From positions 1 through 22,345 of IMG/VR virus record IMGVR_UViG_3300048102_000077: DNA of 22,345 bases. One strand, 5' to 3'. Of the stretch, positions 1 to 22,345 are shown piece by piece (the stretch's first letter is position 1; each line of letters starts with the position of its first letter). The stretch comes from a virus. A model generated the notes under the pieces. The model ran no database searches. It had not been told where the DNA came from and worked only from the letters and a program-made list of their open reading frames with translations. The position numbers were made by a program, and so were the translations under genes.

Positions 1-1372
1 GTCGTCAGGGTCAATACCTTTTCTACATGTAGTAGACTCAGAGATGTTAGCCTTCTCACAAGGAAAGACTAGAAGGGGCAGCTATGCCGCTTACATGGAC
101 GTAAGCCATCCTGAGATTATAGAGTTTCTAGATATGCGTAAGCCTAGTGGTGGTGATGTACACAGGAAGTGTCTTAACCTACATCATGGCATTAACATAT
201 CTAACGACTTCATGGAGCTGATTGATAACTGTATCAAAGAACCTACGTTTGATGATAGCTGGAATCTAATTGACCCTCATACAAATGAGACAGTAAGAAC
301 GATATCAGCTCGTGAATTATGGCAACGCATATTAGAAAGCAGAGTAGCAACAGGTGAACCATACATTATGTTTGGTGACACAGTTAATGATGGGCTACCT
401 CAAGCACAAAAAGATTTAGGTTTAAAAGTAAACCATTCTAATTTATGTACAGAGATAACATTACCAACGAATGAAGAACGCACAGCTGTGTGTTGTTTGT
501 CTTCAGTCAACTTAGAAAAGTATGATGACTGGAAAGCTGACCCAATGTTCATACCTGATTTAATCCACTTTCTTGATAATGTGCTACAGCACTTTATTGA
601 CAATGCACCTGACACTTTATACAAGGCTAAGTTTTCTGCTGTAAATGAACGTAGCTTAGGGTTAGGTGCAATGGGATTCCATTCTTACTTACAATCTAAA
701 GGCATACCATTTGAATCAGCATTGGCTAAGTCTAAGAACCTACAGATGTTTAAACATATTAAGGAACAGGCTGTCAAAGAATCTAAACGATTAGCTATTA
801 AGAAAGGTGAAGCACCTGACATGGAAGGCACTGGGATGCGTAACGCTCACCTACTTGCTATCGCACCTAACGCTTCTAGCTCAATCATATGTGGTACTAC
901 ATCACCAGCTATCGAACCATACAGGGCTAATGCCTATGTGCAGAAGACAATGTCAGGTTCATTCTTGGTTAAGAATAAACACCTAGAGAAACTATTAGAA
1001 AGCAAAGGGATGAATGATGAGAAGACATGGAAGAAGATACTAGCCAACAGAGGTTCAGTATTAGAACTCAAAGGTCTTACTGATTATGAGAAGGATACAT
1101 TCAAGACAGCCATAGAGATTAACCAACAGTGGGTAATAGAACACGCAGCAGACAGACAAGAGTTTATTTGTCAGGGACAATCTGTTAATGTATTCGTTCC
1201 AGCTGATGTTCACATCCGTGAACTACATGACATACACATGTTGGCTTGGAAAAGAAAACTCAAGACACTTTACTACTGTCGCTCAGAAGCAATGAAGAGA
1301 GCAGAACTAGTGTCACAAAAGATAGAACGAACAATCATTCCTGATGGGGAATGTATAGCTTGCGAGGGATAA
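1..1372 (+). CDS. nrdA: Class I ribonucleotide reductase, large (alpha) subunit, C-terminal part
   Basis: Catalytic subunit of aerobic ribonucleotide reductase, which reduces ribonucleoside diphosphates to deoxy forms for phage DNA synthesis. The gene starts upstream of the window: the frame is open from base 2 (first full codon) and already reads conserved NrdA sequence (SGSIPF...) before the first ATG at 44, so 44 is not the real start. About 456 residues are present. Visible catalytic landmarks are the Asn-x-Cys-x-Glu active-site motif SNLCTEI (Asn 440-442, Cys 446-448, Glu 452-454), the partner cysteine in TAVCCLS (about 491-493), the Tyr-Tyr radical-transfer pair in LKTLYY (1271-1276), and the C-terminal redox cysteine pair in ECIACEG (Cys at 1352 and 1361). 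The first redox cysteine and any N-terminal ATP cone lie outside the window. It is followed by nrdB with a TAATG overlap. Family assignment is secure; subclass Ia rests on the NrdB partner. Confidence 0.96.
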   Translation, partial: SSGSIPFLHVVDSEMLAFSQGKTRRGSYAAYMDVSHPEIIEFLDMRKPSGGDVHRKCLNLHHGINISNDFMELIDNCIKEPTFDDSWNLIDPHTNETVRTISARELWQRILESRVATGEPYIMFGDTVNDGLPQAQKDLGLKVNHSNLCTEITLPTNEERTAVCCLSSVNLEKYDDWKADPMFIPDLIHFLDNVLQHFIDNAPDTLYKAKFSAVNERSLGLGAMGFHSYLQSKGIPFESALAKSKNLQMFKHIKEQAVKESKRLAIKKGEAPDMEGTGMRNAHLLAIAPNASSSIICGTTSPAIEPYRANAYVQKTMSGSFLVKNKHLEKLLESKGMNDEKTWKKILANRGSVLELKGLTDYEKDTFKTAIEINQQWVIEHAADRQEFICQGQSVNVFVPADVHIRELHDIHMLAWKRKLKTLYYCRSEAMKRAELVSQKIERTIIPDGECIACEG

Positions 1373-2322
1373 TGAATTTATTTAAAGAACGTACACACTA
1401 TAAACCATTTACATATGACTGGGCATTTGAGTCCTATGACATGCAACAGAAAATGCACTGGCTACCTTCAGAGGTTTCTTTACATGAAGATGTAAGAGAC
1501 TGGAATGAAAGGCTGACAGAACCTGAGAAGAATCTTATTAATCAGATACTTAAATTCTTTACACAAGGTGATGTAGATATAGCTAAGGCTTACCTAGATA
1601 AATACTTACCTAAGTTTAAAGCACCTGAAGTACGTATGATGTTAACTTCTTTTGCGTCCAGCGAAGCTAACCATGCTCATAGTTATTCATTACTAAACGA
1701 TACTATCGGATTACCTGAGACAGAGTACAAAGCATTTCAAGAATACAGGGAGATGGCTGATAAACATAAGTACTTATTTAAAGACAAAGGTAAAGGTGTA
1801 GAAGGACTGGCTAGAGACATAGCTTGTTTCTCTGCCTTTGGTGAAGGACTACAACTGTTCGCTTCTTTTGTTATGTTACTTAACTTCCAACGCTTTGGTC
1901 GTATGAAAGGTATGTGCCAAATAGTCACATGGTCTATCCGTGATGAGTCACATCATGTAGAGAGTATGATTAAACTATTTAAAGAAATGATTAAAGAGAA
2001 TCCAAACGTATGGAACGACGATTTCAAAGCCACTATCTATCAAACCTGTAGAGACATGGTTGAGCTAGAGGATAAGTTTATTGACCTAGCATTTGAACAA
2101 GGTGGTATTCGAGGACTAGAACCTAAGGAAGTTAAGCAATACATAAGGTACATTGCTGACCGTAGGCTGTTACAACTATCATTGAAACCTAACTACAAAG
2201 TAAAAGATAACCCATTAGAGTGGTTAGACTGGGTGCTTAATGGCGTTGAGCACGCTAACTTCTTTGAGAATAGAGCAACTGAATACAATAAAGGAACAAT
2301 AACTGGTACACTATGGACTTAA
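1372..2322 (+). CDS. nrdB: Class Ia ribonucleotide reductase, small (beta, radical-bearing) subunit
   Basis: Diiron, tyrosyl-radical subunit that partners NrdA. I start it at ATG 1372 (316 aa, MNLFKERTHYKPF), which overlaps the nrdA stop as TAATG and has GAGG at 1364-1367; an in-frame ATG at 1351 would add seven residues but lies inside nrdA and lacks a better site. All expected metal ligands are present with E. coli NrdB spacing: Asp67, Glu98 and His101 (in SEANHAHSY), Glu158 (GEGLQLF), Glu192 and His195 (RDESHH). The radical tyrosine is kept as Tyr105, seven residues after Glu98, so this is not one of the tyrosine-less variants. Length is somewhat below the 376 aa of E. coli NrdB, which is common for phage versions. 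The stop codon runs into a promoter-like motif, so nrdB probably ends one transcription unit. Confidence 0.96.
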   Translation: MNLFKERTHYKPFTYDWAFESYDMQQKMHWLPSEVSLHEDVRDWNERLTEPEKNLINQILKFFTQGDVDIAKAYLDKYLPKFKAPEVRMMLTSFASSEANHAHSYSLLNDTIGLPETEYKAFQEYREMADKHKYLFKDKGKGVEGLARDIACFSAFGEGLQLFASFVMLLNFQRFGRMKGMCQIVTWSIRDESHHVESMIKLFKEMIKENPNVWNDDFKATIYQTCRDMVELEDKFIDLAFEQGGIRGLEPKEVKQYIRYIADRRLLQLSLKPNYKVKDNPLEWLDWVLNGVEHANFFENRATEYNKGTITGTLWT

Positions 2323-6946: not shown

Positions 6947-7549
6947 ATGGCAACACAAATAACACCAACTACCGAGTTACAAGCTATCAACACTATGCTC
7001 TCTGCTATTGGAGAAGCACCTGTTAACTCAATTAGCGGCGTAACAAACGTAGATGTATCTGTCGCTATAAATATCTTAGATGAAACTAGCCTTTCTGTAC
7101 AAAGTGAAGGCTGGAACTTTAACACAGAATACAATGTAACTTACTCAATAGATGATGATAGTAAGATTCCATTACCTTCCAACTGCGTCCAAGCTGACGC
7201 TCATGCAACACACAGATATCAAAACGTAGTAATACGTGATGGTAAACTGTATGACCTAGATAACCACACAGACGTCTTTACAATCGTCCCACCATTAGAT
7301 GTTGTATTAGTACAACAATTTGAACAACTACCTGAATACGCTAGACGCTATATTACAGTTAAAGCAGCTAGACGTTTTGCAGCTAGATTCATAGGTGACG
7401 CTGGTTTATCTGAGCTAATGAGCATAGATGAACAGGAAGCTTATAATAACTTTAAGCAGTCTGATTCTAGAAGTGAAGATGTAAACATACTAGAAGGTGA
7501 TGCTAATACATATTCAATAATCAATAGAACACCTAGAAGGACTTATTAA
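6947..7549 (+). CDS. Tail tubular protein A (T7 gp11-like adaptor)
   Basis: Adaptor ring joining portal to tail nozzle. The 200 residues are close to T7 gp11 (196 aa). The N-terminal TTELQAINTMLSAIGEAPVN followed by NVDVSVAINILDETSLSVQSEGWNFNTE is the hallmark of this family, and the middle QLPEYARRYITVKAARRFAARFIG also matches. GAGG lies six bases before ATG 6947, and the gene begins just after the capsid terminator. Its stop overlaps the start of tail tubular protein B (TAATG), the same pairing as T7 genes 11 and 12. Confidence 0.96.
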   Translation: MATQITPTTELQAINTMLSAIGEAPVNSISGVTNVDVSVAINILDETSLSVQSEGWNFNTEYNVTYSIDDDSKIPLPSNCVQADAHATHRYQNVVIRDGKLYDLDNHTDVFTIVPPLDVVLVQQFEQLPEYARRYITVKAARRFAARFIGDAGLSELMSIDEQEAYNNFKQSDSRSEDVNILEGDANTYSIINRTPRRTY

Positions 7550-10035
7550 TGGCAGTAGTTTCTCAGTCGATACCTAACTTTCTGAATGGTATAAGCCAAC
7601 AAACACCTACCCAACGTGGTATTAATCAAGGTGAAGAACAGATTAATTGTCAAAACAATATAATCAAAGGCTTAGGCAAACGCCCACCATCAGAATATAT
7701 AGCTACACTAGATGCTACAAATGTGTTTCCTAACACTACAAAGATATGGAGCATACAAAGAGACGAGAACAATAAGTACATTGTTGCGTTTTACAATGGT
7801 GGTGTAAGAGTCTTTGACTTACAAGGTAATGAGAAGACTGTAAGTTACCCTGACGGAACATCTTATCTTACAACTACAAATCCTAAGAATGACCTTAAGA
7901 TGGTTAACATTGCTGACTATACTTTTGTATCTAACAAATCTATAACACCAGCACAAAGTGGCACAACTACAGCAGCTAAAGTAGAATACTTTTATGTAGT
8001 GTTTAAGGTAACTAACTTTGGTAGAGAGTATGCAATACATCTTACTCACCCTGACTTACCTTATGGTATTCATGCAATTATACAAATGCCTGATGGTAGT
8101 GACGCTAACCATGACACACAGTTTAGAGATACAGCAAAGCTTATAGATATCTTTAGATATGGCACAAGCAGTACTTATTGGGACGCTTCTTCTAGTATAG
8201 GGTTTAAATTAACTAGAGCAGACACAGGGGCAACACTCACTACAACACAAGGCTTAAGTAGTTATTCAGCTGTCACAGCAGAGTTTACATTTACAGAACA
8301 CCAGTCTGCACTACGTGGTTATGTAGTAGACCAAAACGCTAACTATACAGTAGAGACACATGATGGTGCTGGTAACAGTGAACTGTATGCAGTTAAAGAT
8401 GAGATACAAGATTTTACTAAGTTACCTTATTATGCAAAGTTAGATGATAAGATTAAAGTAACAGGGGATGCTGGTGATACTACATCAGATTACTATGTTA
8501 ACTATGTAGGCAATGGTGTATGGGAAGAATGTATAGCACCTGACACAAGTACAGGGCTAGATAACTCTACAATGCCACATGCTCTTATTAATAATAATGA
8601 TGGTACATTTACTTTTGCACAGCAGACTTACACAGACAGGGACGCTGGGGATGATGTCACAAACCCTGACCCTACATTTGTAGGACAGAAAATACAGAAC
8701 CTTACATTCTATAAAAATAGACTAGGTATATTAGCTGGAGAGAATTTAATATTATCAGGTAATGCTGATTACTTTAACTTCTTTGGAACAACAGTAACAC
8801 AGGTATTAGATACAGATGTTATAGATGTTGCAGCTTCAGGTACAACTGTAAACGTATTAAGAAATTCAATATCATTCAACGAGACCTTACTGTTATTCTC
8901 CGACACATCACAGTATAAACTCGCTTCAGCAGCTGAGACAATTACCCCGACCTCAGCTGTGTTGAATGAAGTATCAACATTCTCACACAATGCTGATGTA
9001 ACACCTGTATCTTCAGGTAGATATGCTTACTTCTCACAAGTACGTAATGCAAACACAGCAGTAAGAGAATATTATTCAGACAATGATACATTAACTAATG
9101 ACGGTTTAGATGTTACTGTTGCGGTACAAACTTTGATACCTGACAACGCTTATTCAATATTAAGTAACACAACAGAAGATTCTTTGATAGTGCTGTGTTC
9201 AGATACAGCTGACACTCAGACAGCACCATACACTACAGGAACAGCTGTATCACCTACCAATGCCAACACAATGTATATGTACAAATACTTTTTTGATAGA
9301 GGTGAGAAAGTACAAACAGCGTGGTCTAAATGGCAACTAGACAATGTTAAAATAATAGGTGGGATGATAGACCGTAGTTTTGTATATTTATTTGTAGCTG
9401 AAGGAACAGACACAAAGTTACTACGTATTGACTTACAAGATTTAGCAGACTCAACCATAGGTCATAATGTATATCTAGACCTTAAGAAATCTGTAACTGG
9501 AACTTATGATTCAGGTACTGACCTTACTACATTCACTAGCCCATATGGAGCTAAGACAGGATTACTAGCTGTGAACGCTAGCACAGGAGCTGATTACACA
9601 GCAACAAATACAACAGGTTCAACATATACAATAGAAGGAGACCACACCAGTTTAATTATAGGTCTGCCTTATGAATCTAAATATACACTGTCACCACAGT
9701 ACGTAAGAGAATCTTCAGGACAAGGGGCTATAGCTGTCACTTCAGGTAGATACCAAGTGCGTACTATATCGTTTGACTATGAAGACAGTGGGTTTTTTAA
9801 AGTAGAAGTAACACCTGAGAATAGAGATACATATACCACATTTATGAATGGTTACATTATTGGTTTAACAGGAGCAGTAGATAACCCAGCGATTTCGTCA
9901 GGTACTATTATTGTCCCTGTACAAAGTAGAAATACATTATTTACATTAGATATAAAGAGTAGCTCACACTTACCTATGTTTATTCCTAGTGCTGAAGTGG
10001 AAGGTTACTACCACAGACGTTCTAGGAGAATATAA
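7549..10035 (+). CDS. Tail tubular protein B (T7 gp12-like nozzle)
   Basis: Hexameric tail nozzle protein that closes the tail and contacts the fibres. It has 828 residues (T7 gp12: 794). The start SIPNFLNGISQQTPTQRGINQGEEQINCQNN is the conserved N-terminus of this family, continuing into GLGKRPPSEYIATL. Further matches include KIQNLTFYKNRLGILAGENLILSGNADYFNFF (about residues 382-413) and FNETLLLFSDTSQYKL (about 443-458), both beta-propeller elements typical of gp12. ATG 7549 overlaps the gp11-like stop and is preceded by AGAAGGA. Its stop touches the ATG of the next gene. Confidence 0.97.
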   Translation: MAVVSQSIPNFLNGISQQTPTQRGINQGEEQINCQNNIIKGLGKRPPSEYIATLDATNVFPNTTKIWSIQRDENNKYIVAFYNGGVRVFDLQGNEKTVSYPDGTSYLTTTNPKNDLKMVNIADYTFVSNKSITPAQSGTTTAAKVEYFYVVFKVTNFGREYAIHLTHPDLPYGIHAIIQMPDGSDANHDTQFRDTAKLIDIFRYGTSSTYWDASSSIGFKLTRADTGATLTTTQGLSSYSAVTAEFTFTEHQSALRGYVVDQNANYTVETHDGAGNSELYAVKDEIQDFTKLPYYAKLDDKIKVTGDAGDTTSDYYVNYVGNGVWEECIAPDTSTGLDNSTMPHALINNNDGTFTFAQQTYTDRDAGDDVTNPDPTFVGQKIQNLTFYKNRLGILAGENLILSGNADYFNFFGTTVTQVLDTDVIDVAASGTTVNVLRNSISFNETLLLFSDTSQYKLASAAETITPTSAVLNEVSTFSHNADVTPVSSGRYAYFSQVRNANTAVREYYSDNDTLTNDGLDVTVAVQTLIPDNAYSILSNTTEDSLIVLCSDTADTQTAPYTTGTAVSPTNANTMYMYKYFFDRGEKVQTAWSKWQLDNVKIIGGMIDRSFVYLFVAEGTDTKLLRIDLQDLADSTIGHNVYLDLKKSVTGTYDSGTDLTTFTSPYGAKTGLLAVNASTGADYTATNTTGSTYTIEGDHTSLIIGLPYESKYTLSPQYVRESSGQGAIAVTSGRYQVRTISFDYEDSGFFKVEVTPENRDTYTTFMNGYIIGLTGAVDNPAISSGTIIVPVQSRNTLFTLDIKSSSHLPMFIPSAEVEGYYHRRSRRI

Positions 10036-16807: not shown

Positions 16808-18907
16808 ATGGCAAACAGTTTTGTAAGGTATACAGGTGATGGCAGCACAGCTACCTATTCTGTACCTTTTAGCTATAGGGCACAAGAAGATGTCTCTATT
16901 ACTATAGATGGTGTTGTAACTACAGCATTTACATGGAATGGTGCTGGTACACAGGTTACATTTACCACAGCTCCAGCTTCCTCTACAGCTATAGAAATCC
17001 GTAGAACCACAAGTCAGGGCACAAAGCTCGTAGATTATGCGTCAGGTTCAGTACTAACAGAATCAGATTTAGACACGGATAGTGACCAAGCGTTCTTTAT
17101 GTCTCAAGAGGCTATTGATGACGCTGGTGACGTAATTAAGTTATCTAACGCTAACTTTCAATGGGACACACAGAATAAACGTTTAACTAACGTAGCTGAC
17201 CCAACATCAGCTCAAGACGCAGCTACTAAGAATTATTTAGAAACCACATGGCTATCAGCTAGTGATAAAGCCAATATTAACACTGTGTCAGGAATAGCCA
17301 GTGCTGTAAGCACAGTATCAGGTAACACTACTAATGTTAATACTGTAGCGGGCATATCCAGCAACGTTACAACAACAGCTGGGATTGCTGGTAATATTAC
17401 CACAACAGCTGGTATCAGCTCAGACGTTACTTCTGTAGCAACTAATGCTAGTAATGTAACAACAACAGCGGGTTCAATAAGCAACGTAAACACAGTAGCT
17501 GGTAACATAGCTAATGTAAACACTGTTGCTACTAATATTAGTGACGTAGTTACTGTTGCTAACGACCTTAATGAAGCTATATCCGAAATAGAAACAGCGG
17601 CTAATGACCTTAATGAAACTACTTCAGAAATAGATGTAGTAGCTACTAATATTGCTAACGTTAATACTGTTGGTGGAAACATCACAAACGTTAATGCTGT
17701 AGCTGGTGAATTGTTGTTTACAGATGATTTAGGCTCAATAACAGGGGCTATAACTACAGGCACAGGAAATGACATAAACACTGTAGCTGGTGGTCTTACT
17801 GACGTAACCACAGTAGCTTCTAGTATAAACAATGTTAACACTACAGCTGGAGCAATAGCTAATGTAAACACAGTAGCTGGTATATCTTCAGATGTAACAA
17901 CAGTTTCAAGTAATGCTTCAAATGTAACAACAGTGGCTGGTATATCATCTGCTGTATCTACTGTAGCAGCTGATGGTACAGATATTGGCGTAGTCGCTGG
18001 AGCTGTTACTAATGTTAATAATGTTGGTGGTAGTATTGCTAATGTAAACACAGTAGCTGGTATATCCAGTGATGTAAGCACAGTAGCAGCTGATGGTACA
18101 GATATAGGAACTGTCGCAACTGATATTGCAAACGTAAATACCACAGCTGGTGCAATAGCTAATGTCAATACCACAGCTGGAGCAATAGCTAATGTAAACA
18201 CAGTGGCTGGAATTAGTAGTGACGTTACTTCTGTGGCGGGAATTAGCTCAAACGTAACAGCGGTAGCTAATGATTCAACTGACATAGGAACAGTAGCTTC
18301 TGATATTGCTAATGTTAATACAACAGCTGGAGCAATAGCTAATGTAAATACTGTAGCTTCTAATATTGCTGGTGTTAACAGTTTTGCAGACAGATACAGA
18401 ATAGGTTCGTCTGACCCAACATCTAGTTTAGATGAAGGTGATTTAGCGTACAACAGTACAGATAATGCTCTTAAATATTACAATGGTTCATCTTGGGCTA
18501 GTATAAGTGCTGGTCTTACAGATATTGTTGGAGATGTTACACCACAACTAGGTGGTAACTTAGATTTAAACTCTAATAATATTAGCGGTACAGGTAGTAT
18601 ATCTTGTAGTGGTAATGTAGGTATTGGTACAACTTCTCCTTCTGAAGAACTACATATTTCAAAAAGCTCAGATGTTAGAATTGCATTAGAAAATACTTCT
18701 AATCGTAGATACGATATAATTTCAGGCGATTCAGGAGAGTTTAGAATTTTTGATACTGCTGTTGGAGAACGTATACGTATCGACAACAATGGTAATGTAG
18801 GTATAGGTACAAGTAATCCTACTGCAAAATTAACAGTATCAGGGGATTTAGTAGTAGAAACTATTGATGGAACTAATTTACAAATTGACTTTGGAGGCTT
18901 AACTTAA
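16808..18907 (+). CDS. Tail fibre with T7 gp17-type N-terminus and decapeptide-repeat shaft
   Basis: A 699-residue host-recognition fibre (T7 gp17: 553). Residues 1 to about 105 match the T7 fibre attachment domain (VRYTGDGSTATYSVPFSYRA, then IEIRRTTSQGTKLVDYASGS and LTESDLDTDSDQAFFMSQEA). Residues about 158-527 are a shaft of ten-residue repeats of the type IANVNTVAGx. The C-terminal part (about 540-699) has LTDIVGDVTPQLGGNLDLN, common in phage fibres, and two GNVGIGT(T/S)xP units. AGAGGAAAC precedes ATG 16808, and candidate promoter B lies just upstream. The stop overlaps the next gene's ATG (TAATG). The receptor-binding tip is probably shared with, or supplied by, the following genes. Confidence 0.93.
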   Translation: MANSFVRYTGDGSTATYSVPFSYRAQEDVSITIDGVVTTAFTWNGAGTQVTFTTAPASSTAIEIRRTTSQGTKLVDYASGSVLTESDLDTDSDQAFFMSQEAIDDAGDVIKLSNANFQWDTQNKRLTNVADPTSAQDAATKNYLETTWLSASDKANINTVSGIASAVSTVSGNTTNVNTVAGISSNVTTTAGIAGNITTTAGISSDVTSVATNASNVTTTAGSISNVNTVAGNIANVNTVATNISDVVTVANDLNEAISEIETAANDLNETTSEIDVVATNIANVNTVGGNITNVNAVAGELLFTDDLGSITGAITTGTGNDINTVAGGLTDVTTVASSINNVNTTAGAIANVNTVAGISSDVTTVSSNASNVTTVAGISSAVSTVAADGTDIGVVAGAVTNVNNVGGSIANVNTVAGISSDVSTVAADGTDIGTVATDIANVNTTAGAIANVNTTAGAIANVNTVAGISSDVTSVAGISSNVTAVANDSTDIGTVASDIANVNTTAGAIANVNTVASNIAGVNSFADRYRIGSSDPTSSLDEGDLAYNSTDNALKYYNGSSWASISAGLTDIVGDVTPQLGGNLDLNSNNISGTGSISCSGNVGIGTTSPSEELHISKSSDVRIALENTSNRRYDIISGDSGEFRIFDTAVGERIRIDNNGNVGIGTSNPTAKLTVSGDLVVETIDGTNLQIDFGGLT
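17281..18390 (+). repeat. 30-bp-period repeat array encoding the fibre shaft
   Basis: About 35 units of 30 bp encode ten-residue repeats (consensus near I-A-N-V-N-T-V-A-G-x). Near-identical DNA units starting with (A/T)GCAATAGCTAATGT occur at 17851, 18151, 18181 and 18331, spaced by exact multiples of 30. The phase is interrupted near 17555-17640 by a duplicated 42-bp unit encoding ANDLNE(A/T)(I/T)SEI. This array should be prone to recombination and length change. Confidence 0.85.
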
Positions 18908-19722
18908 TGGCAAAACTATTACAACACAGAGGTGGCACAACCTCAGAACATTCATCATTTACAGGTGCAGTAAGAGAAGTTACTGTTGATACCGATTTAA
19001 AAACATTAAGAGTACATGATGGCTCTACTGCTGGTGGTACACAACTAGCAAGATTATCAGATGTAACTGGTACAACTTCTGTTGGTACACTTTCATCTTT
19101 AACAGTAAGTGGAGACGCAACTTTTGATACATCTACATTAAAAGTAGATTCTACAAACAATAGAGTAGGTATAGGAACTGCAAGTCCAGCACACGATTTG
19201 GTTGTAACAAGTGCTAGTGGTGACGCAACATTACAAATTTTATGCCCTACTACTTCTGATAGCTCACAAATATTCTTTGGTGATACTGGTGATGAAAACA
19301 TAGGTGTATTACATTATGACCATAGTCTTAATGCTTTTAGATTCAATGTTAATAATGGCGAAGAAATGAGACTAGAATCTGATGGCGACTTACATGTAGA
19401 TGGAGATGTCATTGCTTTTTCAACTACAGTTTCTGATGTTGCACTTAAAACAGATATACAAATGATACCTAATGCACTAGATAAAATTGATGAAGTCAGA
19501 GGTGTTACATTTACAAGACACAATGGACAAAAATCTGCTGGTATCATTGCACAAGAATTAGAAAAAGTTTTACCTGAGGCGGTTAGAGAAAAAGAACTTA
19601 AACTTGTAGATGGTAAAAAATATAAAACAGTAGAGTATGATGCAATTCATGGTTTACTAATTAACTGTATTAAAGAACTCAAAGAGCAAATTAAGGAGTT
19701 AAAGAATGGCTTTACAAAGTAG
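18907..19722 (+). CDS. Second fibre/adhesin with C-terminal S74 self-cleaving chaperone domain
   Basis: A 271-residue tail protein. Residues 1 to about 50 (LLQHRGGTTSEHSSFTGAVREVTV, then LRVHDGSTAGG) match the small N-terminal domain seen in phage tropism determinants and fibres. The middle contains RVGIGTASP, the same unit as in the preceding fibre. From Ser176 the sequence SDVALKTDIQMIPNALDKID, then GVTFTRHNGQKSAGIIAQELEKVLPEAV and YDAIHGLLINCIKEL is the intramolecular chaperone (Peptidase S74) domain. This domain trimerises the fibre and then cuts itself off at the conserved Ser; the Ser176/Lys181 pair is intact. The last 20 residues form a Lys/Glu coiled coil. ATG overlaps the previous stop (TAATG), and the 3' end overlaps the next gene by 17 bases. 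Confidence 0.92.
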   Translation: MAKLLQHRGGTTSEHSSFTGAVREVTVDTDLKTLRVHDGSTAGGTQLARLSDVTGTTSVGTLSSLTVSGDATFDTSTLKVDSTNNRVGIGTASPAHDLVVTSASGDATLQILCPTTSDSSQIFFGDTGDENIGVLHYDHSLNAFRFNVNNGEEMRLESDGDLHVDGDVIAFSTTVSDVALKTDIQMIPNALDKIDEVRGVTFTRHNGQKSAGIIAQELEKVLPEAVREKELKLVDGKKYKTVEYDAIHGLLINCIKELKEQIKELKNGFTK

Positions 19723-20266
19723 TGGTCAAATATCTTTAAGTCAAATAGCTACAGAATTTGGTGGCTCTGCACCTCACAGTTTATCTGAATACTATGGTAA
19801 TGGTAATGCACCAGCTAGTGGTGAGATACAACTAGCAGCAGATTTTTATGGAACATCAAATAACATTTCCCTTTCAACTACAATAAATATCGGTCAACAA
19901 ACACTTAAAGCTGGAATAGTAAACAAAGGATTTATAAGCTCACAAGGAAGAACTGTAGGTACAACTAATGATAATGCTAATGGAACAACAACTACAATTG
20001 GAAGTATCGGCAATAACAGTTATGGTTCTGGTGTTGTAGAGGCACTATATGTTACTGAGGGTACAACTGTAGGCGGACATATGCACTTTGAAATATCAAC
20101 CTCTCAAAGTAATTGGTCATCTATTACTGTAAATGGAAATACTTATTATCGTGTATCTTTTTCTAATGATGCTAATCAACTTTTTACAATAAGTGTAGGT
20201 GGTCAAAATCAAACAGGCAACGTATTTGGTAGTAGTGGCACAATAAACTTTTCAATAAACGCATAG
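19706..20266 (+). CDS. Small tail/adhesin-like protein (QSSGxISLSQI type)
   Basis: A 186-residue protein with an AAGGAG site inside the end of the previous gene. Its N-terminus, MALQSSGQISLSQIATEFGG followed by PHSLSEYYGNG and AADFYG, is a motif I know from many marine phage virion proteins located next to fibres. The rest is rich in Ser, Thr, Asn and Gly with alternating hydrophobic residues (for example FTISVGGQNQTGNVFGSSGTI), typical of beta-structured adhesin tips. There is no signal peptide or membrane segment. It is probably a fibre tip or fibre-associated protein, but no specific ligand can be read from the sequence. Confidence 0.75.
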   Translation: MALQSSGQISLSQIATEFGGSAPHSLSEYYGNGNAPASGEIQLAADFYGTSNNISLSTTINIGQQTLKAGIVNKGFISSQGRTVGTTNDNANGTTTTIGSIGNNSYGSGVVEALYVTEGTTVGGHMHFEISTSQSNWSSITVNGNTYYRVSFSNDANQLFTISVGGQNQTGNVFGSSGTINFSINA

Positions 20267-20274
20267 GGAAAATA

Positions 20275-20802
20275 ATGGCATATACATTTACAGAAAAAAC
20301 ATTTACAACAGGTTCTACATTCGATTCTTTGTATACAGATAGTCTTGGTTCTTTTGAAAATGGAACAGTAGTTTTTAATAATTCAGATACTGCTGATGAG
20401 AAAAAAGAATTTTTAATAAATTTAATGTGTAATCAAAATTATCATAATATGAAAAATATAGAAGTAGCTAAAGATGGTGTAGTTTGTATGTGGATTCAAG
20501 GCAAATTTATAGACAATATTTTTACATGGGAAAATGTAATGGTTGGTAAAATAAATAATAGTAAAGCATGGACATATACAAATGAATTTCATCAAGCACA
20601 TAAAGATTGGATTCAATCAATAGGCGGTACTAAGTTTGCACTTGAATGTGTAAAAGGAGCTGAAATAGATACTTATTTTACACAAGGAACTACTGATGGA
20701 GTTTGTTTAGGCTCTTTAACTATAGAAGATTTAGCATACATAGGCTCTGAAGATTATACAAGTAACTTACCAACTATGAAAAGAATGACATGGGAATACT
20801 AA
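20275..20802 (+). CDS. Hypothetical protein between adhesin and desaturase genes
   Basis: A 175-residue protein that I do not recognise. It starts MAYTFTEKTFTTGSTFDSLY, has three cysteines, Trp-containing segments (VVCMWIQGKFIDNIFTW, about residues 63-79), and a central HQAHKDWIQSIGGTKFALECVKGAEIDTYF region (about 107-136) whose layout faintly recalls the end of small acetyltransferase-like folds; I would not call it one. GGGAA precedes ATG 20275. It is distinctly AT-rich, like the desaturase genes after it, and its stop is one base from the desaturase GTG start, so it belongs to that coupled operon or links it to the tail genes. Confidence 0.75.
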   Translation: MAYTFTEKTFTTGSTFDSLYTDSLGSFENGTVVFNNSDTADEKKEFLINLMCNQNYHNMKNIEVAKDGVVCMWIQGKFIDNIFTWENVMVGKINNSKAWTYTNEFHQAHKDWIQSIGGTKFALECVKGAEIDTYFTQGTTDGVCLGSLTIEDLAYIGSEDYTSNLPTMKRMTWEY

Positions 20803-20803
20803 T

Positions 20804-21487
20804 GTGGCACTTACATTATTATTTGGAGTTTACTTCTTACTAGCATTATATTCTTTTGTAGCATTATCTTGGTTACAACTTCTATACACATACATACTTT
20901 TTTATTTTCTACTAGAGTTTGTAATGAGTTTGTTTATACACAGATGGGCTACACATAATCTATGGAATCCACCAGTATGGTTTCAAAACATAATGAGTGT
21001 AGTATCTATGACTGCATTAATTGGAACACCAATATCTTATGCAGCATGGCATAGAAATCATCATAAACATTTTGATACTAATAAAGACCCTCATAGTCCT
21101 AAGTACAAAAACTGGTTTAATATTATATTTAGAACACATGAACAAGAATCTAATATTAAACTTGTTACAGATAGGCTAAGAAATAAATGGCAATTATATT
21201 TAACTAAATATGAAACAACGTTGGTTTACGTGTTCAATGCTATTCTTTTCTTAGTCCTACCTATTGAATGGTTTTTAATTTGGGTAACAGCAGTAGCTAT
21301 GACTACATTTTGGGTAATGTCAGTTACAGGTATTATGTGTCATCTAGGTAAAGTAAAAGATGTACCTTATATGTACCCATTTGCATTTTCAGAATCATTT
21401 CATAAACAACATCACATAGAACCTAAATTAAAACATTGTAAGTTTGACCCTTGGGTTTGGATAATTAATAAACTGAGGTGGACATGA
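20804..21487 (+). CDS. Membrane fatty-acid desaturase 1 (divergent)
   Basis: Integral-membrane diiron oxygenase of the fatty-acid desaturase superfamily, which introduces a double bond into acyl chains using O2 and host-supplied electrons. The 227 residues carry the histidine boxes in order: HRWATH (His46, His51), HRNHH (83-87), His180 in MCHLG, and HKQHH (200-204). Hydrophobic helices flank them (about residues 3-40 and 138-180), leaving the His boxes on one face. It is shorter than most Delta-9 desaturases, and the loop before the last box lacks the usual Asn-rich motif and the GEGWHN form, so its product may differ. GTG 20804 is the only plausible start; upstream the frame closes and later ATGs would lose the first box. 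Its stop overlaps the next gene as ATGA. Confidence 0.88.
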   Translation: MALTLLFGVYFLLALYSFVALSWLQLLYTYILFYFLLEFVMSLFIHRWATHNLWNPPVWFQNIMSVVSMTALIGTPISYAAWHRNHHKHFDTNKDPHSPKYKNWFNIIFRTHEQESNIKLVTDRLRNKWQLYLTKYETTLVYVFNAILFLVLPIEWFLIWVTAVAMTTFWVMSVTGIMCHLGKVKDVPYMYPFAFSESFHKQHHIEPKLKHCKFDPWVWIINKLRWT

Positions 21488-22230
21488 ACCATGCAAGAGG
21501 TGTGCAATTACTAGCATTAATAAATCATATAATAGCTATAGCTGGTTGTATTTATTATCCTCAATATATTATATATGGATTAATAGCTTGGGGTGTAGTA
21601 AATATATTTTCAACTAATATAGCTTTACACAGATTTATGTGTCACAGAAGTTTTGAAACAACACCTATAAAAGAAAAGATTTTAAAATATCTTACAGTAA
21701 TATCAGCGTTTGGTAGTCCTTTATCTTGGGCTGCTATGCACAGATACCACCACAAACATTCTGGAAGTTTAGAAGATAATGAGTCACCTAAAAATATAGG
21801 TTACATAAGAGCGTGGCTGACTTTATATGACCCAATTATTGTTCCTAAAACAATGGTAAAAGATATTTTAAAAGATAAAGATTATATGTTTATAACTAAA
21901 CATTATTGGTTTTTATTGTTTAGTTGGATATTTGTTTTATATTTAATAGACCCTCTATTAGGAATATTTGCTTTTAGCTTTCCAGCAGCATGTATATATC
22001 AAGCAGCTGGTGCATTTGCAGTAATACCACATTGTAAATATTTTGGATATAAAGTTGTTGAATCAAGAAGAGACTGCACTGCAGTTAATTCACCTTTAAC
22101 AAGTTTAGTTAGTTGGGGTGAAGGATGGCATAACTACCATCACACAATATCAAAAGATTATAGACATGGACACAAGTGGTGGGAGTTAGACCCTTCTGCA
22201 TGGATAATTGAAAGGTTGTTTTTAAAATGA
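21484..22230 (+). CDS. Membrane fatty-acid desaturase 2 (Delta-9/DesC-like)
   Basis: A 248-residue desaturase of the classic acyl-CoA/acyl-lipid Delta-9 type. Full ligand set: HRFMCH (His49, His54), HRYHH (86-90), His183 in VIPHCKYFGY, then WGEGWHNYHH (216-220), the standard third box. The end HKWWELDPSAWIIERLF matches the family terminus. Hydrophobic helices lie at about residues 8-45 and 140-180. I choose ATG 21484 over GTG 21478 because GAGG at 21475-21478 gives correct spacing and the ATG makes an ATGA overlap with the previous stop. Electron donors (ferredoxin or cytochrome b5 type) are not encoded nearby and would come from the host. Substrate position cannot be read from sequence; Delta-9 is inferred from box spacing. 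Confidence 0.92.
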   Translation: MNHARGVQLLALINHIIAIAGCIYYPQYIIYGLIAWGVVNIFSTNIALHRFMCHRSFETTPIKEKILKYLTVISAFGSPLSWAAMHRYHHKHSGSLEDNESPKNIGYIRAWLTLYDPIIVPKTMVKDILKDKDYMFITKHYWFLLFSWIFVLYLIDPLLGIFAFSFPAACIYQAAGAFAVIPHCKYFGYKVVESRRDCTAVNSPLTSLVSWGEGWHNYHHTISKDYRHGHKWWELDPSAWIIERLFLK

Positions 22231-22345
22231 GACAACATCATAAAATGTTAGCAATTCAATTTGTTATTCAAATAACAGCTATAATTGGTTTAATTTATTA
22301 TCCATTTAGCTGGTCTTTGTTATTAGGTCTTATTGTTTTTCCTTT
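22227..22345 (+). CDS. Membrane desaturase 3, N-terminal fragment cut by window end
   Basis: A new frame opens at ATG 22227, overlapping the previous stop as ATGA, and stays open for the remaining 39 codons. It begins MRQHHKMLAIQF, and its first hydrophobic segment reads ITAIIGLIYYP, against IIAIAGCIYYP in the same place in desaturase 2. DNA is also alike there (both have AGCTATA before TGGTT and ATTTATTATCC). This supports a third, tandemly duplicated desaturase that continues past the window. No histidine box is yet reached, so the family call rests on N-terminal paralogy and operon position. Confidence 0.65.
   Translation, partial: MRQHHKMLAIQFVIQITAIIGLIYYPFSWSLLLGLIVFP

Follow-up and report, generated by a model that had tools for sequence, protein, structure and literature searches.

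Membrane desaturases are already an accepted kind of auxiliary gene in phages. Those of cyanophages (vFADs) are reportedly delta-9 lipid desaturases, characterised by Roitman in 2018 (ISME J), and they resemble the genes described here in being phage-encoded membrane desaturases thought to change host lipids. The vFADs are reportedly single genes of cyanophages, whereas the present locus carries a near-obligate pair (D1 and D2) found in several kinds of SAR11-type phages. When 50,697 phage records were searched with D1 and D2 at a threshold of E 1e-5, no cyanophage record was among the matches, so that within this collection no recognisable similarity to cyanophage desaturases was found. Close relatives of D1 or D2 were also absent from these records at this threshold; three records matched D2 and one matched D1, and the remote matches were to Pelagibacter phage Mosig (29% identity) and Acinetobacter phage MD-2021a (28%).

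Desaturases (FADs) have also been described in viruses of sea ice and cryopeg, two of which have five copies each, and were modelled on SCD 4ZYO (PMC7300359); in the section of that report considered here, the hosts are different, and neither a conserved ordered pair nor a spread over T7-like and T4-like phages is described. According to three further papers, a freshwater pelagimyophage carries a stearoyl-CoA desaturase (PMC7029224), a probable pelagiphage scaffold contains a desaturase (PMC11480375) and Lake Baikal viruses encode an acyl-CoA desaturase (PMC7678222). The FA_desaturase of Pelagibacter phage Mosig (MT647606) is likewise a short SCD-like protein of a SAR11 phage, but it is found at one place in the record, shares 29% identity with D2, forms a clade with a Bacteriovoracaceae gene and lies beside Asp_Arg_Hydrox and aminotransferase genes. 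SCD1 itself (4zyo, 4ymk and 6wf2) shares the fold and the histidine boxes of the phage enzymes, whereas its chains (318–339 residues) are longer than D1–D3 (227–250 aa). The locus had originally been put forward as a candidate for an undescribed system. This holds only in part, as phage desaturases, including those of the five-copy viruses, are in print (PMC7300359); no paper on a conserved desaturase pair in SAR11 phages was found in the open-access literature searched, and within that literature the novelty lies in the near-obligate pairing, in the additional members and in the occurrence of the pair across dissimilar phages of SAR11 type.

The window (the whole stretch of DNA analysed, a 22,345-base IMG/VR fragment) contains structural genes in T7 order, and its gene content comprises ribonucleotide reductase, connector, scaffold, capsid, tail tubular proteins, internal virion proteins and fibres. 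The features referred to below are as follows.

2..2322, + strand: ribonucleotide reductase large subunit (cut by the window start) and small subunit (phrog_84, phrog_86), at the same place as in HTVC019P
7549..10035, + strand: tail tubular protein B/nozzle (PF25675), the marker used for placing the phage
16808..18907, + strand: T7-type tail fibre (PF03906, E 5.5e-35)
18907..19722, + strand: Mtd_N/endosialidase-chaperone (S74) fibre protein (PF18454, PF13884)
19706..20266, + strand: U2, a putative tail/virion-like protein (assigned by eye) that precedes U1, as it does in relatives
20275..20802, + strand: U1, a GNAT-fold protein directly upstream of D1 (AlphaFold2 model, Foldseek)
20804..21487, + strand: D1, an SCD-fold membrane desaturase of 227 aa with a GTG start (PF00487, SCD1 fold, nine invariant histidines)
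21484..22230, + strand: D2, a delta-9-type membrane desaturase of 248 aa from ATG (PF00487, 4zyo and 4ymk profile matches, nine invariant histidines)
22227..22345, + strand: D3, a third desaturase cut by the window end (ATGA overlap with D2; complete at 240 aa in contigs L003–L006)

The backbone resembles that of HTVC019P, a SAR11 podophage, and the window belongs to the HTVC019P type, sharing the NrdA-NrdB-connector-scaffold-capsid order of that phage. Tail tubular protein B is 67.2% identical to that of Pelagibacter phage HTVC168P, and its 18 best phage records (62.6–67.2% identity) comprise 17 Pelagibacter phages and one marine fosmid; this similarity suggests a SAR11-type host. Pfam and PHROG searches gave no match for U2. 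A chimeric join near 20270–20800, for which the original prediction had allowed, is ruled out, because this region and the window end are covered by contigs of four IMG data sets at 99.98–100% identity (matching stretches of 8868, 8868, 5821 and 4025 bases). Two contigs identical to the last 8,868 bases of the window extend past position 22345 and contain D3 in full. In L006, D3 is followed by genes for 53-aa, 144-aa and 90-aa proteins, a terminase-small-like gene and the terminase large gene. The best PHROG match of the 90-aa protein is a family of unknown function, a holin family being matched only at E 0.0016. Family searches with the 53-aa and 144-aa proteins gave no named family; both precede the terminase genes (L004:9469-10064) and are conserved with or without the desaturase cassette.

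As had been predicted, the window contains two complete desaturase genes and the first part of another, with ATGA overlaps at the D1/D2 and D2/D3 joins. The predicted histidine boxes also agree, being located at H46/H51, H83–H87 and H200–H204 in D1 and, numbered from the ATG at 21484, at H49/H54, H86–H90 and H216–H220 in D2. An ORF tool placed the D2 start at the GTG at 21478, giving 250 aa and shifting the histidine numbering by two; relatives, by their consensus, favour the ATG at 21484. In profile searches with FA_desaturase (PF00487, cut-off 29.7 bits), D2 scored 53.5 bits (E 3.9e-14), and D3 and the additional members found in other contigs (D3a, D4 and D5) scored 48.5, 52.7, 42.0 and 47.9 bits, respectively, all above the cut-off. 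D1 reached 29.3 bits (E 9.5e-7), slightly below the cut-off, and 32.8 bits when read with its neighbours in frame. The proteins are assigned to the FA_desaturase superfamily on these matches, with D1 itself at the cut-off. The sole NCBIfam match was a DesA-family model at 57.3 and 18.1 bits, far below its cut-off of 400.

Searched against PDB chains, the D2 profile matched the acyl-CoA desaturases 4zyo (E 2e-14) and 4ymk (E 3e-14), and the D1 profile gave nothing better than E 0.17. The AlphaFold2 model of D1 (pLDDT 89.2) had the mouse SCD1 structures 6wf2 and 4ymk as its sole probability-1.00 matches in PDB (TM by query 0.69 and 0.68, respectively; E 0.003, none below 0.001), and in BFVD it matched a fragment from an Emiliania huxleyi virus as well as an uncultured phage's OLE1-type desaturase. 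The fold is that of SCD, for D1 by the predicted model and for D2 by sequence profile only. In a loose pattern test, the three histidine boxes (HX3-4H, HX2-3HH and HX2-3HH) were found in 129/129 distinct complete proteins (50 D1, 53 D2, 2 D3, 10 D3a, 11 D4 and 3 D5), and nine histidines are invariant in both D1 (37 rows) and D2 (38 rows). These include a histidine between boxes 2 and 3 (H180 in D1 and H185 in D2), which, by analogy with SCD1, would be the ninth histidine ligand. After box 2, D2 has the motif DNESP, whereas D1, D3 and D4 have DPH. As judged from sequence and model, D1 and D2 are intact SCD-like membrane desaturases, delta-9 activity being predicted for D2.

The pairing of D1 and D2 was followed in tables of 89 contigs, consisting of 80 loci from the D2 scan (which yielded at least 80) and nine from the D1-profile scan (best 80 matches taken), so that counts from these scans are lower bounds; L082 and L113 contain no desaturase ORF, many contigs are short and some represent the same virus in different samples. 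D1 lies immediately before D2 in 74/78 testable contigs, and D5 replaces it before D2 in the remaining four (D1-D5-D2 in L072 and D5-D2 in L073–L075). Read from the other side, D2 immediately follows D1 in 73/74 contigs, and D1 without D2 was seen in one locus (L303). Downstream of D2 (77 contigs), no further desaturase is present in 55 contigs, D3a-D4 in 10, D3 in eight, D4 in two and D3a in two; D3, D3a, D4 and D5 are optional extras to the pair. The original prediction of several membrane desaturases in series is borne out: they are real and conserved, and in this T7-like phage they come after the fibre genes and before those of the terminase.

Distances among D1 proteins are correlated with those among D2 proteins (rho 0.59 over 49 contigs, a value reached in 0/2000 permutations). 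For the subset of 36 contigs in which U1 is present too, rho is 0.64 for D1-D2, 0.16 for D1-U1 (14/500 permutations) and 0.00 for D2-U1 (244/500). Median dN/dS values are 0.13 for D1 and 0.10 for D2 (398/1225 and 256/1378 pairs used, respectively, the others lying outside the set range of synonymous difference), 0.21 for D3a and 0.33 for D4, indicating purifying selection on D1 and D2. This selection and the retention of the boxes in all 129 proteins rule out decay of the desaturase genes, and the loss of histidine boxes in relatives, of which the original prediction had warned, was not seen. In a tree of 77 chosen rows, D1 and D2 each form one well-supported clade, far apart from one another, and the two proteins share 22% identity, which rules out a recent tandem duplication. 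D1- and D2-like genes also adjoin in four phage contigs of larger size, namely L297 (where they are on opposite strands), L298, L304 and L306; those included in the tree join the D1 clade as outer relatives with support of 100/100 and the D2 clade only weakly (84/34). Because the two clades are separate, their outer relatives adjoin and their distances are correlated, the two genes have probably formed a unit for a long time and did not arise by recent duplication.

The AlphaFold2 model of U1 (pLDDT 90.6) has acetyltransferases, one of them named only Ard1, as its 50 listed Foldseek matches in PDB. By sequence, U1 has no Pfam, PHROG or PDB match, and 32 members gave no GNAT match, the best weak matches being to unrelated families. 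U1 is found upstream of D1 in 56/73 contigs and is absent before D1 in the other 17, which are T4-like by their neighbours; of 60 loci found with the U1 profile, 57 extend far enough for the next gene to be seen, and this is D1 in 54 of them but not in three. U1 evolves fast, with a median dN/dS of 0.64, and hhalign found no link between it and the 206–218 aa proteins before D2 in L298 and L304. The idea of U1 as a functional partner of D1-D2, considered for its regular position before D1 and its GNAT fold, is weakened by its fast evolution and lack of co-variation with D2, and further by the missing sequence match to GNAT and its absence before D1 in the T4-like contigs. We assign it here to the module at the fibre end that houses the pair.

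Carriers of D1-D2 include HTVC019P-type phages, T4-like phages and phages of 54–57 kb. G003 has an RNA polymerase, a DNA polymerase and a terminase of HTVC019P type. In the T4-like carriers, D1-D2, in some cases accompanied by D3a and D4, is flanked by the UvsW helicase gene plus a 135–136-aa gene on one side and by a late-sigma-factor gene (phrog_234) on the other; one T4-like contig encodes a cytidyltransferase-like protein with Pelagibacter phage HTVC008M as the best-ranked match (45.7% over 60%). The 54–57 kb carriers are G010 and, by like gene order, G013; the phage DNA polymerase and internal virion protein of G010 are ~30% identical to those of BcepIL02-type phages. Between T4-like and T7-like carriers (three vs two contigs), D1 is 76–77% and D2 78–83% identical, which would be best explained by exchange between phages sharing one host group. 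Among the best 80 matches of a terminase scan, 57 loci closely related to the window phage in their terminase have 2 kb or more of upstream sequence, and 6/57 show D1/D2, a lower bound that concerns close terminase relatives only; since only these six do so, the cassette is accessory in this group. In one T4-like carrier (G006), a 427-aa PF00487-type protein (L116:10426-11709) is the fifth there. Its sole phage matches are annotated as alkane monooxygenase, in two Acinetobacter phage MD-2021a records, and it was set aside as not belonging to the group.

Potential hosts were surveyed in 117 genomes of a SAR11-like order, recognised as such from two SAM-V riboswitches and a 1.2-Mb genome. Because FabA is over the cut-off in 103/117 of these genomes, the usual SAR11-like host presumably sets unsaturation during fatty-acid synthesis. 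PF00487 matches were found in 45/117 genomes, one each (44 above the cut-off), and the open frames are 314–365 aa in length apart from one weak match. None of 20 fetched SAR11-like desaturase loci matched the D profile at E 1e-5, and the four desaturases that were read are longer and of a different type from the phage enzymes. Acquisition from a present SAR11 host has no support, as none of these genomes has more than one PF00487 match and the desaturases examined are of another type. The single PF00487 desaturase is carried by 8/9 of the SAR11-like genomes lacking any FabA match, as if it replaced FabA there; five more genomes, with sub-cut-off FabA only, have no PF00487 desaturase, and these genomes may be incomplete.

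Cellular relatives of D2 were sought in 84,980 species using only two D2 peptide patterns, and the best 80 of 274 hits, 24–35% identical to D2, contained no close cellular source. In a one-class sample, 19/289 genomes match the D2 profile. A Bacteriovoracaceae MAG contains two overlapping desaturases (L132:3845-5283), one grouping with the Mosig phage gene, and their neighbours, named by eye, are aminotransferase-like and radical SAM-like genes.

We favour the reading, at a probability of about 0.6, that the phage-borne D1 and D2 form a module that desaturates existing host membrane acyl chains in an oxygen-dependent manner, the extra members widening its specificity. This rests on the fold family, the intact boxes, the selection, the pairing, the spread over phage types and the enzyme complement of the host. 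We infer that D1 and D2 are located in the inner membrane of the host, where they would use O2 and a di-iron site held by the nine histidines, with an electron donor, presumably of ferredoxin type, supplied by the host. Double bonds would be put into acyl chains already present in host lipids. D2 would be of delta-9 (SCD/DesC) type, and D1, its near-obligate and very divergent partner, probably acts at another position or on another lipid class, or is a member of a complex; D3, D3a, D4 and D5 may provide additional or alternative specificities. As unsaturation in SAR11 hosts is normally set via FabA during synthesis, the phage would gain a way to alter the membrane once host fatty-acid synthesis has stopped. 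The originally proposed host lipid target is retained in this form, host acyl chains being the likeliest target. Counting against this reading are the DNESP motif of D2, the sub-cut-off Pfam score of D1 on its own, the PDB profile result for D1 (E 0.17) and the many relatives in other phages that adjoin Asp/Asn beta-hydroxylase-type oxygenase and radical SAM genes, not lipid genes. No lipid gene or electron carrier was recognised among the neighbours of D1-D2.

The serious rival to desaturation of host lipids, although we consider it unlikely, is that the enzymes catalyse steps in an oxidative pathway of biosynthesis encoded by the phage, yielding an acylated amino acid, a modified peptide or another small molecule, and are not tools for bulk membrane lipids. 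An Asp/Asn beta-hydroxylase-type oxygenase occurs within two genes of a short phage desaturase in 20/23 loci (15/18 when apparent near-duplicates with equal gene lengths are counted once), a raw count obtained with a profile built in three rounds at E 1e-4 that may include other cupins. The 23 loci are the 27 listed minus Mosig (L115), the bacterial L132, and L271 and L294 (T4-like core type), and come from other phage contigs found with D1 and D3 queries; the loci with such a neighbour are L297, L298, L304–L306, L308–L317, L319, L320 and L330–L332. Within the 89 D1/D2 contigs, however, the hydroxylase profile matches only L073 and L074, and the T7-like carriers have no such genes beside D1-D2. 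Asp_Arg_Hydrox accounts for 13/78 scanned neighbours and radical SAM for 6/78, but Asp/Asn hydroxylase is named as core to pelagimyophages in one report (PMC7029224). The D5-D2 genes of L073 lie amid six radical SAM proteins among ten neighbours scanned (L073:3864-15004, G014; this contig also has a 4335-aa open frame), a 2OG-Fe(II) oxygenase (PF13640) is encoded three genes ahead of D1 in the T4-like carriers, and the Mosig desaturase has, beyond its Asp_Arg_Hydrox and aminotransferase neighbours, FMN reductase and molybdenum-cofactor-type enzymes beside it. The GNAT-fold U1 adjoining D1 would also fit such a pathway, except that it evolves fast, lacks a distance link with D2 and does not precede D1 in any of the 17 T4-like contigs. 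In a broader and rather speculative form, which we doubt, SAR11 phages would carry part of an unrecognised world of phage oxidative biosynthesis, in which SCD-type desaturases make a phage-specific product and do not merely fluidise the membrane; this would jointly comprise the divergent pair in SAR11 phages, its grouping elsewhere with Asp/Asn-hydroxylase-type oxygenases and radical SAM enzymes, and, as product, an acylated or hydroxylated small molecule or a modified envelope component.

It appears improbable that desaturation serves release or superinfection control, with the pair tuning the membrane for the adjacent small, possibly lytic proteins. The T7-like cassette lies directly before the conserved 53-aa and 144-aa genes, and the 90-aa protein with its weak holin match comes next in some carriers, but the 53-aa and 144-aa proteins belong to no named family. 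The 144-aa gene is present in 31/57 terminase loci, 25 of them among the 51 without the pair; the pair itself is present in only 6/57 terminase relatives, and lysis therefore does not need it. The connection to lysis timing suggested in the original prediction is also weakened because the cassette in T4-like carriers neighbours UvsW, the 135–136-aa gene and the late-sigma-factor gene, i.e. helicase and late-sigma genes. That the genes are passengers with no strong role, their cassette spreading in the vicinity of the variable fibre region, would agree with their accessory status (6/57 terminase relatives), their lower GC (0.308 vs 0.371) and their occurrence in unlike phages; it is difficult to reconcile with the purifying selection, the boxes kept in 129/129 proteins, the near-strict pairing and the lack of a close cellular source among the best 80 of 274 hits, and we regard it as very improbable.

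SAR11 is the most abundant group of bacteria in the ocean. In phages that appear to infect it, a two-to-four-gene desaturase module is maintained in near-strict order across unlike phage kinds, with no matching host gene in the genomes examined, and this conservation suggests that these phages profit greatly from controlling acyl chains during infection. The module raises the testable question of why two divergent desaturases are needed together, and it suggests a search of marine lipidomes for unsaturated lipids or products specific to infection. Because the well-preserved pair occurs in unrelated kinds of virus and this type of enzyme is absent from the host genomes examined, these viruses probably rebuild the membrane fats of their hosts, or make a new lipid-like compound, during infection.
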